A program made the translations under genes and the position numbers. Below are positions 1 through 11,407 of a stretch of 42,813 bases of DNA, piece after piece; positions within the stretch are counted from its first letter, which is position 1, and the number at the start of each line of letters is the position of its first letter. The notes below the pieces were generated by a model, which searched no databases, had not been told where the DNA came from, and worked only from the letters and a program-made list of their open reading frames with translations. The stretch spans positions 1 to 42,813 of the forward strand of contig DASYZR010000141.1 in NCBI GenBank assembly GCA_035945995.1. The letters run 5' to 3'. This DNA is from a bacterium (GTDB lineage: Bacteria > Sysuimicrobiota > Sysuimicrobiia > Sysuimicrobiales > Segetimicrobiaceae).

Positions 1-64
1 CGGCCAGCCGGCGCGCGACAAACCGCAGTCGTTCGTCCATCACCGAACACTCCTTCCAGGGCAT
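1..64 (-). CDS. IS481-family transposase, N-terminal fragment (runs off window)
   Basis: Read on the minus strand from ATG at 64, the sequence gives MPWKECSVMDERLRFVARRLA before the window ends. This matches the N-terminus of IS481-family transposases, whose next residues (outside the window) form the first helix-turn-helix ahead of a DDE integrase core. A second in-frame ATG at 40 (MDERLRF...) could be the real start. A purine-rich stretch (ggaaggag) sits between the two ATGs and would serve as ribosome binding site for the second. Whether the rest of the transposase is intact cannot be judged. Confidence 0.75.
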   Translation of the reverse strand, partial: MPWKECSVMDERLRFVARRLA

Positions 65-140
65 CGCTCCCCCCCTTTCAGAGGGAGGAGGTGTTACCCA
101 TGTGTCCGGTACAACCTGTTACCTATGTCTCGGGTCGGTC
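1..140 (-). mobile_element. IS481-family insertion sequence, 5' end (cut by window start)
   Basis: This is the left end of an IS481-type element: a transposase start reading out of the window at 64 and, upstream of it on the minus strand, about 70 bp of leader. The leader carries two similar 12-mers (acataggtaaca and acatgggtaaca on the minus strand) of a kind I associate with IS481 ends. The outer terminus lies near 130-145 but I cannot fix it without the other inverted repeat, and no target duplication is visible. Confidence 0.7.
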
Positions 141-205
141 AGGGCTGGCGAAGGTGTCAGAAAAGCAGGCCCCCAGTTACCCCCCAACCTGCGACGGAGA
201 TCACG

Positions 206-257
206 TCCTTGGCTGTTAACCGGAGGGTTGCAGGTTCGAGTCATGCCCGAGGAGCCA
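206..257 (+). pseudogene. tRNA-Asn (GTT) 3'-half fragment
   Basis: Positions 213-219 read CTGTTAA, the anticodon loop of tRNA-Asn(GTT). They are followed by a plausible variable region, a T-arm with loop TTCGAGT (235-241) flanked by gcagg/catgc (one mismatch in the T-stem), and the acceptor 3' strand CCGAGGA plus GCCA ending at 257. No matching 5' acceptor strand (TCCTCGG) or D-arm lies upstream, so this is a 3' half and not a functional tRNA. Such fragments typically remain as attachment-site copies when an element integrates into a tRNA gene. That origin is inference; the resemblance to tRNA-Asn is direct. Confidence 0.75.
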
Positions 258-306
258 AGCAATGCTCCCAGCGTGTTGCGTCTAGCCTGCTACTCCCCTG
301 CTACCA

Positions 307-435
307 ATGGCCAGAGAAAGCCCATATCAGATCGAACTGTCCGTCGAGACCCGCAAGACGCTGGAGGCCATTGCGGGGAAGTATTCGTCATCGTATCGTA
401 ATGTCGTGCGGGCAAAGGTCGTGCTCTACGCCGCA
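307..435 (+). pseudogene. IS630-family transposase N-terminal remnant
   Basis: From ATG 307 the first ~43 codons (MARESPYQIELSVETR...VVRAKVVLYAA) match the conserved N-terminus of IS630-family transposases, including the R-A-K-x-V-L-x-A-A segment of the first helix-turn-helix. After about 435 the similarity stops. The reading frame stays open to 735, but none of the three frames resembles the expected second HTH or DDE domain. It is therefore a truncated remnant. It begins 50 nt after the tRNA-Asn fragment. Confidence 0.7.
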
Positions 436-534
436 CCGTTCCTTCGGCCGGAAATCTTAGCTTCAAGCGCAAGGCATCCTTCGTGCGCCGCGTCGTCCGA
501 GACTACGTTGCCGCGCCCATCGACCGCCGTTTCC

Positions 535-783
535 CTACCGCGCGGGCGGGATTCGAGTGTCACCCTGGGGCCGCTGCTCCCAGGCGCGGAGCCGGTCCTC
601 CGCAACACCTGTCGCGGTAAGAACCGGCTGAATCGCCTCCTCAGTGAAACGGTCATTCCCGAACACGACAACAGCGCGGTAGTGGACCGCCGAGATCCCG
701 ATCCGTTGCGCGGCCTGCTCGACGCTCACACGTGAGCGGAGTTGCCGGTATTGAACAGGGTTTTGTGTTCGAGGGGAAGCCAT
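535..783 (-). CDS. Possible small HTH-type protein (doubtful)
   Basis: This is an 82-residue frame from ATG 783. The central part (VSVEQAAQRIGIS, then a helix-rich stretch ending in EDRLRAWEQ) resembles an XRE-like helix-turn-helix, and codon third positions are G/C rich as in real genes of the window. Against it: no Shine-Dalgarno sequence precedes the ATG, the flanks are degenerate mobile-element sequence, and I do not recognise the family. It may be a fragment of a larger gene broken by insertion. The interval between the IS630 remnant (435) and this frame (535) holds nothing I recognise. Confidence 0.35.
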   Translation of the reverse strand: MASPRTQNPVQYRQLRSRVSVEQAAQRIGISAVHYRAVVVFGNDRFTEEAIQPVLTATGVAEDRLRAWEQRPQGDTRIPPAR

Positions 784-830
784 GCATTGCGCTTCATTCT
801 GTTCGGGGAAAAGCATCCTGCCGAACGAAC

Positions 831-864
831 AAAAACGAAAGGGAGGATACCGAAGCACCCTCCC
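831..864 (-). terminator. Rho-independent terminator, minus strand
   Basis: On the minus strand GGGAGG (864-859) pairs with CCTCCC (846-841) across a 12-nt loop containing CTTCGG, followed by TTTCGTTTTT (840-831). It lies about 95 nt past the stop of the small minus-strand gene at 962-1195 and would end its transcript. Confidence 0.55.
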
Positions 865-961
865 CGACAATCGCGCAAATCAAAAAAAGAGTCTTCATGG
901 CACTCAGTTCTTTCATGCCTTCCTCCATCGTTAGGAACGGCAATACTCTGACGCTGTTCCA

Positions 962-1195
962 CTAGGCTAGTCCGCTTTCGGAAATGAATTGATCCACGGC
1001 TTCAGCCTTGGCCGCCTCCACGACAACGACACTAATATGCTCACGGCTCACAAACGGCCCCGCAACAAGATTGACGCCAAGCCGCTTCGCCAGCGCCGGG
1101 ATTTCCGGTGCCCGCTTGAGCAACAGGTCTCGCGTTTTCGCGTTCGAGGTGGGGCATATCTCCGCGCCATGGGAGGCGAGCAAAACGAAATGCAT
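962..1195 (-). CDS. Small conserved hypothetical protein, apparently cut short by an amber codon
   Basis: This 77-residue frame starts at ATG 1195 behind a good ribosome binding site (agaggtcg). It contains CPTSNAKTRDLLL and VAGPFVSREH, features of a widespread ~100-residue uncharacterised protein that I recall as a small alpha/beta domain; its function is unknown. Translation stops at TAG (964-962) just after SESGLA. The same frame continues with WNSVRVLP and MEEGMKEL, which matches how I remember full-length relatives continuing (Q-W-N-x-V-R, then MEEG), so TAG appears to replace a CAG glutamine codon. A T7 run at 888-882 would give a natural stop with one T fewer. I infer a decaying gene, in keeping with the mobile-element debris next to it. 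Confidence 0.6.
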   Translation of the reverse strand: MHFVLLASHGAEICPTSNAKTRDLLLKRAPEIPALAKRLGVNLVAGPFVSREHISVVVVEAAKAEAVDQFISESGLA

Positions 1196-1373
1196 TGAAA
1201 CGACCTCTTCGCTCGACTTTGGTGCCACCCTCCATCCCACCCGACGCCTGATGTGACCTGCCGAAATGCAGTAGCCGTTTTTCGGTCGGTTGCCCGTGCC
1301 GCCACCATTACCACTGCTACCACCGTGATACTGAGCCTGGACATGAACGACAGGGCCGGTCGGGGACCGCACC

Positions 1374-2318
1374 GTGGGGGGCCGCATCCAGCGTTACAAT
1401 CTGAGCGCCGAGCAGCGGCAGCGCGAGCCGCGCACCCCCGACGTCGGGGTGGTCAAGAAGGCGATGGACGCCATCGGGATCGACTACGCCAACCTCTTCC
1501 CGACCGCGCTCCTCAACATGGGAATCCTGCCCGAGGTGGATGTCCAGGTGGCCGTCAGCCGCGCCTACGCTCGGTGGATCACCGAGCGCGTGCTCCCCGA
1601 GGAGCCGCGGTTGCGCACGATGATTTCCCTGCCGTTCAACGACCCCGATGCCAGCGGGGAGATGGTCGAGGAGTTCGCCGATCGCCGCGGCGTCATTGGC
1701 TTCGTCGTCGGCAGCACCTTCCACCGGCCGGTCCATCACCGCAGTTACATGAAGGTCTATGCGGCGATCGAGGAGCGAGGCATGCCCCTTGCCTTCCACT
1801 CGACGTACAACTGGCAGGATCGCCTGACCGAGCAGTTCAACAAATTCCTCTCCGCGCACGGCGTCGGCCGCACACTCTACAACATCGTGCACCTCACCAA
1901 CTTGGTGGTGAATGGCATTCCCGAGCGCTTCCCGCGCCTGAAGCTTGTCTGGATGGAGAGCGGCGTCGCCTGGATCCCATTCCTCATGCAGCGCCTGGAC
2001 AATGAGTACATGATGCGTTCTTCAGAGGCTCCTCTCTTGAAGAAGCGGCCCAGCGAGTACATGTGCGAGTTCTATTACACCGTCCAGCCGATGGAGCGCT
2101 CCAATCTTGATCTGCTCGAGGCGACGTTCGCGGCCATCCACGCGGACACACAGGTCCTCTACGCATCAGACTATCCGCACTGGGACTTCGACCTGCCGAG
2201 CAGCATCTACGACCTTCCGTTTCTTTCGGAGGACGCCAAGCGCCGCATCCTCGGGGGGAACGCCATCAACCTGTACGGTCTGCCCTCGGCCACCACGAAA
2301 GTCGCGGTGGCAAGCTGA
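1374..2318 (+). pseudogene. Amidohydrolase (ACMSD-like TIM barrel), N-terminally truncated
   Basis: The 314-codon frame carries core and C-terminal signatures of the amidohydrolase-2 family: IGIDYANLFP, SRAYARWITE, LAFHSTYN (metal-ligand histidine region), WMESGVAWIPFLMQRLD and ASDYPHWDFD (aspartate ligand, final barrel strand). Relatives are usually 350-400 residues and begin with a D-x-H or H-x-H metal-binding strand. That segment is absent here: the first recognisable residues fall mid-domain, the best start is a GTG at 1374 without a convincing RBS, and an in-frame TGA lies at 1344. Without the first metal-binding strand it is unlikely to be active. Location beside IS and tRNA remnants suggests the 5' part was lost by rearrangement. 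Confidence 0.65.
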
Positions 2319-2341
2319 CCCAACGGAGGGAGACGCCGCGC

Positions 2342-2536
2342 CTAGGGCTTCGTGCCGCCCACTTGGTTCTTGAGCACCTCTTGCGCGTGCTCTGACGCGG
2401 CGCCGGCGGCTCGCTGGGCCGCGCCGACGGCGGTTCCAGACGACGGTCCCTTCGCCAGCTGCGTCGCCTGCTTCAGGCTCAGCGAGACAACCAGCGCGAG
2501 CGCGATGAGGAGACCCAAAGCCCCGACGTAGCGCAT
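2342..2536 (-). CDS. Small single-pass membrane protein, unknown function
   Basis: This is a 64-residue protein from ATG 2536, chosen over an upstream ATG at 2569 because GGGAG sits at the right distance and the protein then begins directly with its hydrophobic segment. Residues 3-20 (YVGALGLLIALALVVSLS) form a membrane anchor or uncleaved signal. The rest is Ala/Gly/Ser/Gln-rich and likely extracytoplasmic. No family is recognised. It is separated by 135 nt from the small gene upstream and converges with the truncated amidohydrolase. Confidence 0.55.
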   Translation of the reverse strand: MRYVGALGLLIALALVVSLSLKQATQLAKGPSSGTAVGAAQRAAGAASEHAQEVLKNQVGGTKP

Positions 2537-2671
2537 CTGTATGCTCCCGGGTCGGAACGACCCCAACATGCGGTGGCCTTGTGCCCGGTCCCGCGTGGGA
2601 TGTATGCCCCGGTCGGCGCGCGGCCAGACGGTTGGAGCGGCCTCTGCGGCCTCGTGCGCGCAGAGACCACG

Positions 2672-2878
2672 CTATACCGGTCCGCCGGCCTTCGGCGGCG
2701 ATTCTTGGCCCGAGGAGCGGCTCGTGGAATCGCTTTGCGCGACCGGGGAAACGGTCACGCGGCGGTGGCCGGTGGACTCCTCGTGCATCCGCTTGGCGGC
2801 GTCGGCGTGCTCGCGATGCACCGCGTGCATGTTCCACTGACACTCCGGGCAGGTGGCCTGCCACCCTCGCAAGGTCAT
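2672..2878 (-). CDS. Small Cys/His (zinc-ribbon-like) protein
   Basis: This 68-residue protein starts at ATG 2878 behind GGGAGGA. The N-terminus has C10-P-E-C13, followed by a histidine-rich helix (HAVHREH ... RMHEE) and GH, an arrangement like the short DUF1059-type metal-binding proteins with C-x2-C and H-x(n)-H. The C-terminal third is low-complexity and polar. It begins 14 nt downstream of the PRC-barrel gene and is probably in the same transcript. Metal binding is inferred from the residue pattern only. Confidence 0.6.
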   Translation of the reverse strand: MTLRGWQATCPECQWNMHAVHREHADAAKRMHEESTGHRRVTVSPVAQSDSTSRSSGQESPPKAGGPV

Positions 2879-2892
2879 CGTGGTCCTCCCGT

Positions 2893-3261
2893 TTACGGGC
2901 GATTCCCGCTGCGCCAGCCCGGGTGGTGCCGGAAGAACCCCGTCGTGCCGATTCGATAAACCTGCTCTTCCTGGTACGCGGGGCACTGCTCCGCCTCCGC
3001 CGCCGAGATGCGCAGCGAAACCGCCCGTTCCGTGATGCGGGCGACCATGGCGGCGGACGCCATCCGGTGCGTGGTCCACAGGTGGTGCCGGAAGCCGACG
3101 CCGTCGAAGATATCACGATCGGGATCTCCCAGAACGTGCGTCACATGACCGATGGGCGTGCCGTCCGAAGCGAGCACCGCCATGCCAGACTCGATGAGGC
3201 GCCACGAAACCTCTTCCGTGCCGTTGTCGCGCTGCGAAGCGCCCTCCTGCGAATCTCGCAC
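2893..3261 (-). CDS. PRC-barrel-like domain protein
   Basis: This is a 122-residue protein. Residues 20-95 look like a PRC-barrel or related beta-barrel: an opening strand ending in ESGMAVLASDGTPIGHV, a V-x-G-D-P-D-R-D-I-F-D-G-V segment, and a closing VARITERAVSLRISAAEAE strand typical of the 'barrier against degradation' half of this fold. The C-terminal ~25 residues are basic and unassigned. Such barrels occur in stress and envelope proteins of soil bacteria; the exact role is unknown. First gene of a minus-strand group with the Cys/His protein, and transcribed divergently from the tetronate operon (179-nt intergenic). Confidence 0.65.
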   Translation of the reverse strand: MRDSQEGASQRDNGTEEVSWRLIESGMAVLASDGTPIGHVTHVLGDPDRDIFDGVGFRHHLWTTHRMASAAMVARITERAVSLRISAAEAEQCPAYQEEQVYRIGTTGFFRHHPGWRSGNRP

Positions 3262-7116: not shown

Positions 7117-8466
7117 CTACGGCGGCGGGCAGATGTAGCCGGGCCCGTTTTGGTTGGGAAAGCACCCGACCGACTGTGGAAGGATCAGGCGCGGCAGCCA
7201 CAACACCACGTTCGGGAACAGAATGATCAACGTGATGACGAGAAAGAAGACGGCGTACAAGGGGACCGATTGGCGGAGGGCGCGGCTGAACGGAACGCCG
7301 GCCAGGGTCGAGGCCAGCAACAGGATCAGCCCGTAGGGCGGGGTGATCAGGCCGAACGCGAGGCTCACGATCACGAGCACGCCCATATGCACCGGGTTGA
7401 TGTGCCCCAGCTGCGTCAGCGAGAGGATGATGGGCATGAAGATCGCGATCGCCGGCGCCCCGTCGAGGAAATCGCCGGCGATGGTGAGGACGAGCACCAT
7501 CGCGTACATGATGACGATCCGGTTGCCGCCCGCGAGCGCTTCAATCCAGCCCCTGACGATCGTCGGACCGCCGAGATACGCAAGCAGCCATCCCACGGCC
7601 GAGGCGCTCGCGACCGCCGCCATCGGGAGGGAGTAGAGGACGGCCGCCTCCATGAAATCGCGAGGCAGGTGGCGGATGTGCCCCCGGTTCAGCAGCGGCA
7701 GGAGCACGACGAGGATGTACGTGACCGCGATCATGCCGGCCTCGGCGGGCGTGATGATGCCGAAGCCGACGCCGCCGACGATGATGATCGGGATCATCAG
7801 CGGCAGCAGCGCCGCGCGCGTTGCGCCGGCCATCTGGCCGAGCGTCGCCCGCTGCTTGCGGATGCCGGGCGGGCCGAAGACGTAACTGTAGACCATCAAC
7901 CCGACCCCGACCATGAGCCCGGGGGTGGCTCCGCCGAGAAACAGGCCCGCGATCGACACGCTTCCGACCGCCCCGTAGATAATGGCCATGATGCTCGGCG
8001 GCACCATCGCCGCGATGGTCGAGGCGGCGGCGACCAGCGCGGCGGAGAAGGCGGGATTGTATCCCTCTCGTTCCATGTAGGGCATGACGACCGTGCTGAT
8101 GGCGGCGACGTCGGCCGTCATCGAGCCCGAAATGCCGGCAAAGAGCATGCTCGAAACGCTGACCACATGCGCGAGGCCGCTGCGGAAGTGGCCGACGAGC
8201 GCCTGCGCGAAGCTGATCAGCCGCCAGGTGATGTTCGCGGACGTCATCATGTCGCCGGTCAGCAGAAAGAACGGAATCGCCAGGAACTCGAGCTGGTTGA
8301 TGCCGTTGAACATCTGCCCGACGATCGAGGCGAGCGTGATCTTGGTGAACAGCGTCGTGGTCACCAGCGCCCCCGCGATGAGGGCGAACGCCACCGGCAC
8401 CCCCTGGTAGCCGAGATAGATGAACGTCACGATCATCACGATCAGGGCGACGGCGTTGGTATCCAT
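7117..8466 (-). CDS. dctM: TRAP transporter large permease DctM
   Basis: This is a 449-residue, very hydrophobic protein with about 12 predicted helices. Family signatures include FFLLTGDMMTSA, SSMLFAGISGSMTADVAAISTVVMP and AAASTIAAMVPPSIMAIIYGA near residues 65-155, and GDFLDGAPAIAIFMPII and FGLITPPYGLILLLAS in the second half. It forms the ion-driven channel of a tripartite ATP-independent importer. ATG 8466 gives a normal N-terminus. The last ~20 residues (GCFPNQNGPGYICPPP end) are an unusual tail. Last gene of the minus-strand GH88-dctP-dctQ-dctM group, converging with the tetronate operon. Confidence 0.93.
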   Translation of the reverse strand: MDTNAVALIVMIVTFIYLGYQGVPVAFALIAGALVTTTLFTKITLASIVGQMFNGINQLEFLAIPFFLLTGDMMTSANITWRLISFAQALVGHFRSGLAHVVSVSSMLFAGISGSMTADVAAISTVVMPYMEREGYNPAFSAALVAAASTIAAMVPPSIMAIIYGAVGSVSIAGLFLGGATPGLMVGVGLMVYSYVFGPPGIRKQRATLGQMAGATRAALLPLMIPIIIVGGVGFGIITPAEAGMIAVTYILVVLLPLLNRGHIRHLPRDFMEAAVLYSLPMAAVASASAVGWLLAYLGGPTIVRGWIEALAGGNRIVIMYAMVLVLTIAGDFLDGAPAIAIFMPIILSLTQLGHINPVHMGVLVIVSLAFGLITPPYGLILLLASTLAGVPFSRALRQSVPLYAVFFLVITLIILFPNVVLWLPRLILPQSVGCFPNQNGPGYICPPP

Positions 8467-8478
8467 CCGGGGCGGCTT

Positions 8479-9129
8479 TTACGTCACCGGCAATCCGTGG
8501 GTCCCGGGCGACGTGTCGGCCGGCGACTCGTAGCCGCGGCGCCAGCCGTTGACCAGCTCCTCGATCGTGAAGAGCGCGGCCAGGGCGCCTCCCACCGGAA
8601 TCGCGGCGTACAGCACGGCGATGGGCGTGACCGACGGCATCAGGAAACTTCCGAACCCGTTGAGATAGTTGCGATAGCCGAACACGATCATGCACACGGC
8701 GGTGCCGAGAATCACCAGCCGGTTGAGCGTCTCGACCAGCAGGCGTTTGCGGCCGCGCAGGGACTGTCCGAGCGCGGTCAGTCGGAAGTGCTGGTCCCGG
8801 CGGACCGCCACGCCCATGCCCAGGAACACGCCCCAGACGAAGAAGCCGATTTCGAACTCCCCCGCGTCGAGCCATGGGCGGTCGATCGTGCGGAAGCTGA
8901 CGTCGGCCAGCTCGCAGAGGGTGAAGCCGAGCAGCAGCAGGGCGCAGACGACCATGAGGAATCGCTCCAGGACGTCGAGCGCCGGCCACTTGAGATGCCG
9001 GGACGCGCGGACGGTGATCCGCTGCTTGGGCGCCAGGACGACGCCCGCGGCGAGGGCCCCTTCCTCACCCGGGCTCCCGGCGTCAGCCGGGGCGTTCCCG
9101 CGCGCGGGGACGCCGGCCCGCCTCGGCAC
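8479..9129 (-). CDS. dctQ: TRAP transporter small permease DctQ
   Basis: This is a 216-residue protein with four membrane segments (roughly residues 57-77, 90-110, 133-153 and 166-190) and the DctQ signature WLDAGEFEIGFFVWGVFLGMGVAVRRDQHFR between helices 2 and 3. It bridges the large permease in TRAP transporters. The start is GTG 9129, directly behind the dctP stop codon, leaving an unusually long polar N-terminus of about 50 residues. No good internal ATG exists before the first helix, so the true start could be a weaker internal codon. It sits 12 nt upstream of dctM. Confidence 0.88.
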   Translation of the reverse strand: MPRRAGVPARGNAPADAGSPGEEGALAAGVVLAPKQRITVRASRHLKWPALDVLERFLMVVCALLLLGFTLCELADVSFRTIDRPWLDAGEFEIGFFVWGVFLGMGVAVRRDQHFRLTALGQSLRGRKRLLVETLNRLVILGTAVCMIVFGYRNYLNGFGSFLMPSVTPIAVLYAAIPVGGALAALFTIEELVNGWRRGYESPADTSPGTHGLPVT

Positions 9130-9130
9130 G

Positions 9131-10138
9131 TTACGTCACATTGCGCACGAGCTTCAGGAGCTGGACCGCGTACGGGCCCAGCTCCTGAGCCTGCGGATCC
9201 TGCAGCGGAGCCGCGAGCGTCACGAAGCTCTGCTTGTCGACCTTCTGGTTGAATTTCACCCCGAGCCCCTGCAGCGTCTTGACCGCGGCGGCGTCGTTCA
9301 CGAGCGCCTGCCGCGCCGCCCGCGGCAGGGCATAGCCGGCCGCCGCCTCCACCCATTGCTGCTGCTGGGCGGAGAGACTGTCCCACGTCTTCTGGCTCAT
9401 CCAGAGTTGGTTGTTGTTGGCCTCGTGCTGCGTCTTCGAGAGCACCGGGGCCGCTTCGTAGTGCTTGTTCTTGAGGTAGATGTCGTTCCCGTTTTCGGCG
9501 ATCTGCACGAGTCCGGTCTGCAGCGACGTGTACACCTGTCCGAACGGCATGTGCACCGGCACCGCGCGGTAGGCGCTGAAGAACGCGTCTTCGGTCTTCG
9601 TCGCCTGCACCCGCACCTTCTTCCCCACCAGGTCGTGCGCGCCCGTGACGGCGAACTTGGCATACATGTTCCGGAAGCCCAGCGTCATCAGGCCGAGCGA
9701 CCGCGCGCCCGTCGTATTGTCGAGAATCATCTTCTTGAAGTACGCGTTGATGCCGGGGTTCGTCACCGAATCGAGGAGATGTTTCTCGTCGCGAAAGATG
9801 AAATGAAGCGAAAACACGCCGGCCTGCGGCACGACGGTCGCGGTATTCGCGGTGGCGTTGATCGCGAAGTCGATGTCGCCCGTGCGGACTTTCTGCGCCA
9901 TCTCCGGTTCCTGCCCGAGCGCCGCGTTGGGGAACTGCCGGATGGCGAGCGTGCCGCCGCTCAACTGCTGCAGATGTTCCTGGAACCGGTCGGCCATGAA
10001 GCCGTAGGCGGTTTCGTGAGGTTGATCGTAGCCAAAGGTGAACGTCCGCGCGGCGCCCGCGGCCTGGACCCGCCTCACGCCCCACGCCGCTCCGGCCAGG
10101 GCGATTGTTCCACGCACGAACGAGCGTCTCGTCAGCAT
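9131..10138 (-). CDS. dctP: TRAP transporter solute-binding protein DctP (Tat-type signal)
   Basis: This 335-residue protein starts at ATG 10138 behind GGAGGT; an upstream in-frame ATG (10216) has no RBS. The N-terminus MLTRRSFVRGTIALAGAAWG is a twin-arginine-like signal. The mature part shows the DctP fold: TFTFGYDQPHETAYGF, FPNAALGQEPEMAQKVRTGDIDFAI, and VGKKVRVQATKTEDAFF with the conserved arginine of the carboxylate-binding site. The carboxylate-anchoring arginine fits sugar acids or other organic acids. Neighbouring GH88 and tetronate genes make a sugar acid the likeliest ligand (inference). Confidence 0.9.
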   Translation of the reverse strand: MLTRRSFVRGTIALAGAAWGVRRVQAAGAARTFTFGYDQPHETAYGFMADRFQEHLQQLSGGTLAIRQFPNAALGQEPEMAQKVRTGDIDFAINATANTATVVPQAGVFSLHFIFRDEKHLLDSVTNPGINAYFKKMILDNTTGARSLGLMTLGFRNMYAKFAVTGAHDLVGKKVRVQATKTEDAFFSAYRAVPVHMPFGQVYTSLQTGLVQIAENGNDIYLKNKHYEAAPVLSKTQHEANNNQLWMSQKTWDSLSAQQQQWVEAAAGYALPRAARQALVNDAAAVKTLQGLGVKFNQKVDKQSFVTLAAPLQDPQAQELGPYAVQLLKLVRNVT

Positions 10139-10234
10139 GCGCGACCTCCGGTCGTGGCGTCTTGGCCTGACCGAACGCGGTGCTGGTCCCGCCAAGGGTC
10201 CCACTGTTTTGCACATGGGGGCCGGGTCTCCTTC

Positions 10235-11407
10235 CTACCCTGGAAGAACCGGGCGTCCGGCCGCCGGCACCCGCCCCAGGCTGCGCAGATAGAAGTAGTC
10301 GCCCCAGATGAGCGCGGAGTCGACGCCCTCCCGGTGCGGGCGCGAGTAGCAGCCGTGGAGCAGCACCCCGTCGATCTCCTCGGGGGCGCGGTTCTGGCAG
10401 TGCGCCGCCAGCGCCTCGAGAAGCGACGCGGCCTCGTCGCGGTAGCGCCGCGCGCGGGCGGGCGAGGGATGCACCGCCGAGAGTTCGAGCAGGCCGTCCG
10501 CCGCGATCGCCGCCGCCGAGCTGTCGCGCGGGGCGTCGGGGATCGCGGGATCGTCGAAGTCCCAATATGGAACGCGGTCGGCCGGCAGCCGCCGGGTGAA
10601 ATAGTGGGCCGCCGCGTCCGCGGCGGCAAGGAATTGCCCGGCCCCGGTCTCACGATAAGCGATCGCGAATCCCGCGATGGCCCAGGCCTGACCCCGCGCC
10701 CAGGCGGACTCCGGCGCATGCCCCTGGAACGTCGTTTTCCGGGACACGGCGCCGGGCGTACGGCCGTAGACGACGAGGTGGTACGTGGACCCGTCCGGCC
10801 GGAAGAAGTGCCGCCGTGTAGTGGCCGCGTGCGCCGCCGCCGCCGCGGCATACCGGCCGTCACCGGTCTTCCGGGACGCCCACCACAGCAGCGGGAGGTT
10901 CATCATCGTGTCGATGGTGCTGGTCCCCACCCATTCGGGATCGCCCCGGGGTCCCCAGGCCTGAAGGTAGCCGCCGGTCTCTACGAATCTGCTGAGCAGG
11001 GTGCGGGCCGCCACGAGCGCCCGGGCGCTCAGGGCGCCGTCGTGGCCGAGCAGATCCCCGACCGCGTGGCTCGGATAGAACAGAAAGCCCAGGTCGTGGG
11101 TTCGATCGTCATGCTCGCGGCCGGCCAGACGCTCCGCCCACAGGCGGGCGGCGTCGGCGTACCGGGCATCTCCGCTCCATTGCGACGCGAGCCACAGGCA
11201 TCCCACCCAGAAGCCCGCGGTCCAATTGCCGTGCCGCCATGTCGTGCCCGTCCATCGCGGCCCGTCGCTCCCGGCGAGGGTCTTCCAGCGTCCCTCCTCG
11301 GTGACGTGCGGGAACGAATCGCCGAGGCGCCGTGCGGTGTGATCGATGGCGCGCAGCGTGAGGGCGAGGCGCGCGTCGAGGCCCGGCGGCCCGCCGGCCG
11401 GCGTCAT
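10235..11407 (-). CDS. Glycoside hydrolase family 88 (unsaturated glucuronyl hydrolase-like)
   Basis: This 390-residue protein has an (alpha/alpha)6-barrel pattern. Asp105 (HDLGFLFYPS) and Asp166 (TSTIDTMMNLPLLWWA) are 61 residues apart, the same spacing as catalytic Asp88 and Asp149 of the Bacillus UGL enzyme. RGQAWAIAGFA, WDFDDP and IWGDYFYLRSL are further GH88 signatures. The family hydrates the 4,5-double bond of unsaturated uronides left by polysaccharide lyases, releasing a 4-deoxy-5-keto uronic acid. No signal peptide is seen, so it is cytoplasmic and would act on imported oligomers. Its ATG overlaps the MaoC stop (ATGA), and a 96-nt gap separates it from dctP. Confidence 0.85.
   Translation of the reverse strand: MTPAGGPPGLDARLALTLRAIDHTARRLGDSFPHVTEEGRWKTLAGSDGPRWTGTTWRHGNWTAGFWVGCLWLASQWSGDARYADAARLWAERLAGREHDDRTHDLGFLFYPSHAVGDLLGHDGALSARALVAARTLLSRFVETGGYLQAWGPRGDPEWVGTSTIDTMMNLPLLWWASRKTGDGRYAAAAAAHAATTRRHFFRPDGSTYHLVVYGRTPGAVSRKTTFQGHAPESAWARGQAWAIAGFAIAYRETGAGQFLAAADAAAHYFTRRLPADRVPYWDFDDPAIPDAPRDSSAAAIAADGLLELSAVHPSPARARRYRDEAASLLEALAAHCQNRAPEEIDGVLLHGCYSRPHREGVDSALIWGDYFYLRSLGRVPAAGRPVLPG

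Follow-up and report, generated by a model that had tools for sequence, protein, structure and literature searches.

How did the 3′ half of a tRNA-Asn(GTT), running from the anticodon stem-loop to the CCA, come to lie on a contig that holds no complete tRNA gene? The window analysed here is the whole of this contig (C141, 42.8 kb), which belongs to a genome (G000) assembled in 181 contigs with an estimated contamination of 2.6%. The original prediction had read the fragment as a probable attachment-site scar marking the edge of an old integrated element. Our analysis leads to a related but different picture, which we build up from the fragment itself, its flanks and the corresponding sites in other genomes.

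When we searched window 180-330 against its own genome with BLAST, a single other place was found, C59:20077-20140 (92% identity over 64 nt, E 2.8e-20), which corresponds to the 3′ part and first flanking bases of an intact tRNA-Asn(GTT) gene at C59:20049-20123. In a direct alignment with this gene, the identity covers 211-257 (46 of 47 bases), the sole mismatch being an A for a C at position 243 in the T stem. ARAGORN found no tRNA in the window, Rfam gave nothing in window 1-3000 at E values up to 5, and none of the 50 RF00005 matches of the genome is on C141. For the missing acceptor strand, the best 7-mer among starts 121-205 fits at 5 of 7 positions, and the RNA folding of 180-260 was no better than that of shuffled sequences (z +1.05). 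We therefore rejected a degenerate tRNA-Asn gene, as there is no fold and neither a 5′ half nor an acceptor-stem partner upstream. The prediction of a half that runs from the anticodon loop to the CCA and lacks its 5′ part was thus confirmed, as were its expectation of an intact gene elsewhere in the genome and the 3′ end at 257: upstream sequence does not complete a tRNA, and the half matches the genome's own tRNA-Asn. Only the predicted start at 206 has to be corrected, to 211.

The identity starts two bases ahead of the anticodon loop, and in genome G005, where a displaced tRNA-Asn 3′ half also occurs, the half starts at the first base of the loop (equivalent to window 213). These starting points suggest that strand exchange took place within the anticodon loop. 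Each of the 12 family genomes has one full-length tRNA-Asn match, and the extra matches are 3′ halves, seen in G002, G005 and the window only. In searches of phage and plasmid DNA, the matches listed (8 of 353 phage records and 10 of 89 plasmid records) lie mainly within the tRNA-like part. The features of the region are collected in Table 1.

Table 1. Features at the left end of the window (positions are those of the window)
Feature	Position	Strand	Basis or remark
IS481-family insertion sequence end, transposase start	1-141	-	repeat in C142 and plasmid matches
Sequence to the left of the half-site, from a secondary chromosomal site or from the other arm of the element	142-210		69 bases
tRNA-Asn(GTT) 3′ half, anticodon stem-loop to CCA, putative attachment-site core	211-257	+	46/47 to C59
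Anticodon loop CTGTTAA, presumed crossover (overlap) region	213-219	+	starting points of identity
30-nt spacer, perhaps a diverged ATCAAG... leader	258-287	+	likeness to C59 flank
Direct repeat TGCTAC(T/C)-N4-TGCTACC, 11-bp period, putative arm-type integrase sites (P′ arm)	288-305	+	
Possible IS630-type transposase N-terminal fragment (weak)	307-444	+	tblastn

Up to about position 900, to the right of the half, we found only unassigned sequence, repeats, remains of mobile elements and a helix-turn-helix-like ORF. Farther on, G006 matches over 279 bases from 917, and the match of the gene block to G011 starts at 1353. The contig starts within an IS481 element that ends at base 141. Window 1-141 reappears identically as the opening of contig C142, all of the plasmid matches to it that were listed (8 of 46 records) stop at base 141, and one plasmid record examined is an annotated IS481 transposase. 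On C142, at 140-367, the same IS481 end cuts an integrase C-terminus. C141 and C142 were considered as the two sides of a single IS481 insertion, which was rejected because both show the same end of the element. The prediction had placed the half between an IS481 end and an IS630 remnant, and while the former is established, the latter is weakly suggested: window 307-444 resembles by tblastn (44% over 43 aa, E 0.01) a helix-turn-helix ORF immediately preceding an annotated IS630 transposase, has no Pfam match, and may be an IS630 transposase N-terminus.

Farther to the right, about 60 nt at 467-527 have four further copies in the genome (79-88%), two on C111 and one each on C96 and C15, those on C111 being near an integrase gene, and an 82% match is also present in G001. 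A reading of 426-527 as an IS3 or IS481 transposase remnant was discarded, since its frames disagree and a peptide search gave one record at E 5. On the reverse strand, 535-870 holds the 111-aa helix-turn-helix-like ORF (HTH_31, E 0.0036, below the cut-off). Its relatives in G001 (68-78% amino acid identity) occur at three sites, of which one has an integrase gene on one side and a fragment of an integrase on the other.

In the 43 class genomes, the left flank of the half (142-210) matched nothing beyond the window itself at an E value below 0.02. Its first bases (142-154) share a 13-nt exact match with the flank of the genome's own tRNA-Lys gene, and 1 of 200 shuffles was equally good; this likeness is suggestive only, since genomes throughout the class match this stretch exactly over 15-17 nt. 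We compared the flank with the spacer between integrase and core in G005, with the sequence preceding the half in G002 and with the integrase tail on C142, and rejected a relationship in all three cases as the scores were no better than those of shuffles.

On the right side, sequence likeness continues past the CCA. Of the first 22 bases, 16 are identical to the C59 tRNA-Asn flank, compared with at most 11 for 35 other tRNA flanks of the genome, drawn from the tRNA loci fetched and some perhaps repeated. A gapped alignment with the C59 flank was no better than shuffles (p 0.19). The same comparison with flanks of full-length genes of other genomes gave 0 of 500 for G005, 0.008 for G003 and 0.04 for G011, the remaining ones being above 0.05. 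A leader, ATCAAG, was found at most two bases from the CCA at nine places in 7 of the 43 class genomes (control 0), next to tRNA-Asn in five genomes, tRNA-Lys in two and a tRNA of unassigned type in two. The seven genomes with the leader all belong to the family, whose other members (of 12) do not have it at their tRNA-Asn. Such a patchy distribution would be expected of a sequence derived from an element. The spacer in the window is perhaps, at most, a diverged form of this leader.

The flank of the genome's own tRNA-Lys, used as a control, scored highest of all against the window flank (28), because both carry TGCTAC(T/C)C(T/C)CCTGCTACC. When we searched the 43 class genomes for a tRNA 3′ end followed by CCA, 22-40 nt and TGCTACYCYCCTGCTAC, with the reversed pattern as control, five places in four genomes were found and the control gave none. 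Besides the window half, these are the tRNA-Asn of G005 (identified by sequence) and the tRNA-Lys of the genome itself, G011 and G021 (all three identified by ARAGORN), so that the other four places are intact tRNA-Asn or tRNA-Lys genes. The distance from the CCA to the repeat is 30 nt in the window, G005, G011 and G021, and 31 nt at the tRNA-Lys of G000. The strict pattern occurs at only 1 of the 12 family tRNA-Asn genes, and the C59 flank in the genome itself does not have the repeat. Among the open-licence papers listed for integrases, arm-type sites and attP sites, no title or abstract opening described this repeat.

Several of these repeats are associated with integrase genes. In G021, an integrase C-terminus (Pfam Phage_integrase, E 1.9e-9) points towards the adjacent tRNA-Lys, and its stop codon and the repeat overlap. 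In G005, the intact tRNA-Asn with its repeat opens a stretch of 21.8 kb that ends in the displaced tRNA-Asn 3′ half, and about 0.1 kb before this half lies an integrase remnant. It was recognized by tblastn from two stretches similar to the C74 integrase, one of 50 aa (54%) and one of 41 aa (41%); the single ORF called there has no Pfam match. In IMG/VR, the repeat is present on five contigs that represent four distinct sequences, L179 sharing the context of L181. In two of these (L183 and L180), it is at, or at most five bases from, the start codon of an integrase gene, recognized by Pfam in L183 (E 1.6e-24) and by tblastn to an integrase of the window's genome in L180 (E 7e-15). For the other two of the four sequences, no integrase was found near the repeat among ORFs of at least 120 aa; the L179 repeat is near genes that by eye resemble phage terminase, and that of L182 is within a cluster of such repeats, with 14 TGCTAC(C/T) units in about 200 bp (8076-8272). 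The integrase associations in G021, G005, L183 and L180 lead us to read the TGCTACC repeat as putative arm-type integrase sites, judging from position and recurrence.

The genome has seven Phage_integrase matches, none of which is on C141, and therefore we regard the window fragment as a relic site and not as an element. Contig C1 has a broken integrase gene (296-1293) directed towards a tRNA-Ser gene, which is possibly another used attachment site of this genome.

The tRNA-Asn locus itself could be followed in genomes of the same genus by means of a neighboring secreted-repeat lipoprotein gene (Pfam Lipoprotein_15 in G000, recognized by eye in G001 and G002). In G001, the tRNA-Asn lies about 160 bp ahead of this gene, with no insert. 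In G002, the tRNA-Asn is followed by a 1.2-kb insert and a displaced, eroded half, and then by the same lipoprotein gene; the insert (L058, about 9087-10310) gave no integrase in tblastn searches with five integrase queries, and its very small size could possibly reflect an internally deleted island. On C59 of the genome itself, about 1.2 kb with a cupin gene separates the tRNA-Asn from the lipoprotein gene and there is no second half. The tRNA-Asn site is thus one that inserts use, and the window fragment is not part of it, since C59 resumes its native neighbors about 1.2 kb after the tRNA-Asn. The intact tRNA-Asn on C59 and the fragment on C141 do not bracket an island.

Taken together, we consider it very probable that window 211-305 represents a relic tyrosine-integrase attachment site, composed of a core and the element's own P′ arm. 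The fragment is nearly identical to the genome's own tRNA gene and spans the stretch from the known anticodon-loop subsite to the 3′ end; most likely, it is the leftover docking site of a mobile element of which the rest appears to be gone. The half-site would be on the element side (attP or attL type) and not a displaced chromosomal copy, because what follows it on the right, with the leader and the TGCTACC repeat, is like the element side of other junctions. The scar proposed in the original prediction is therefore upheld in kind, by its endpoints, the intact gene and the halves in G002 and G005, with its polarity reversed. That it marks the edge of an element still present found no support, as the 42.8-kb contig has neither a second half-site nor a Phage_integrase match, as native neighbors follow the tRNA-Asn on C59 and as the IS630 remnant is weakly suggested.

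The relic could have arisen as follows. An element of the kind that integrates into tRNA-Asn and tRNA-Lys genes would have carried the tRNA 3′ half, which would serve to rebuild the tRNA split by integration. Its integrase would have bound core sites around the anticodon loop and arm sites past the CCA, and strand exchange would have occurred inside the loop. The segment would then have been left away from a tRNA gene once the remainder of the element had decayed or insertion sequences had displaced it, IS481 on the left and probably IS630 on the right. Core binding, arm binding and strand exchange are assigned here by analogy with tyrosine integrases in general.

How the attachment site reached its present position may be explained in two ways. 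In the first, an element whose attP was of tRNA-Asn type inserted at a secondary site of the chromosome, so that 142-210 would be host DNA and 211-305 the end of the element, for which we see a little under an even chance. A junction at a secondary site is expected to show the core and then the P′ arm on its right and unrelated sequence on its left, as is seen here, and the use of such sites is documented for the integrase-driven island SGI1 in the account given of it (PMC2297512); however, the opposite junction was not found, and no relative has a counterpart of 142-210 by which this flank could be shown to be host DNA. In the second, the window holds a whole attP or tandem junction in which 142-210 is the integrase-side arm, brought there by a plasmid, a tandem array or a rearrangement mediated by insertion sequences; we see this as a real possibility that falls somewhat below even. 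The integrase remnant just before the displaced half of G005 suggests that the integrase would precede the core and P′ arm in the circular form, and an integrase C-terminus follows the identical IS481 end that opens C142. Against this, the shared IS481 end means that C141 and C142 are not two sides of one insertion, and 142-210 resembles neither the G005 spacer nor the C142 tail better than shuffles do.

Outside the attachment-site reading, a duplicate of the tRNA-Asn gene with its 3′ flank could have lost its 5′ half, perhaps in connection with the IS481 insertion. The likeness to C59 does extend about 20 nt past the CCA, as a duplicate would show, and IS481 is 69 bases to the left. However, IS481 ends at 141 and not at 211, and therefore did not itself cut the tRNA; the family genomes each have one full-length tRNA-Asn match and their extras are 3′ halves only; the break falls at the anticodon loop, a known integrase subsite as outlined in the Islander catalogue (PMC4383910); and the flank has the TGCTACC repeat that is absent from the C59 flank and present at integrase-associated sites. 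Such a duplicate is thus very unlikely. A chimeric assembly, with a tRNA-Asn 3′ half fused to unrelated sequence, is more improbable still, for despite the fragmentation and contamination estimate of the assembly and a contig that starts at a repeat, the half differs from the genome's own tRNA-Asn at one core base and in the flank, and so does not come from reads of that gene, and the junction lies 69 bases inside sequence present once in the genome.

Read as the relic of an attachment site, the window fragment is a known kind of feature and a common genome scar, here well preserved and ectopic. As outlined in the Islander catalogue, tyrosine-integrase islands are integrated at tRNA genes, with an anticodon subsite that comes with a 3′ fragment (PMC4383910). 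Like the sites described there, the window has a fragment spanning the anticodon loop and everything 3′ of it, with an intact tRNA in the genome; unlike them, fragment and intact tRNA bracket no island, no integrase accompanies the fragment, and the fragment bears an element-side arm and not the displaced chromosomal flank. The G005 insert, which includes sulfatase, solute-binding protein and MFS transporter genes, shares with the window the core, the spacer length and the TGCTACC repeat, but it is still at the tRNA-Asn with both ends and an integrase remnant. As far as SGI1 is described in PMC2297512, an integrase that inserts its island elsewhere than at the primary site would leave an ectopic junction such as that in the window; in contrast, the primary site of SGI1 is thdF and not a tRNA gene, and the window has one junction and no element.

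We advance as a speculation, which is rather unlikely to hold in full, that tRNA-Asn and tRNA-Lys genes in this class are both targets of one integrase lineage whose TGCTACC arms lie 30-31 nt from the CCA, that arm geometry and not tRNA identity defines the family, and that the window records an integration away from any tRNA gene. If so, the spacing rule would by itself be enough to map the scars of this lineage genome-wide, including places from which the integrase has disappeared. The preserved putative arm sites make such scars searchable, as a tRNA 3′ end followed after 30-31 nt by the TGCTACC repeat, and a search of this kind reached the tRNA-Asn or tRNA-Lys genes of three other class genomes and the genome's own tRNA-Lys, two of them having integrase remains at the site or in the insert (G021 and G005). 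In poorly known lineages, attachment-site scars reveal which tRNA genes have been used as entry points for mobile DNA.
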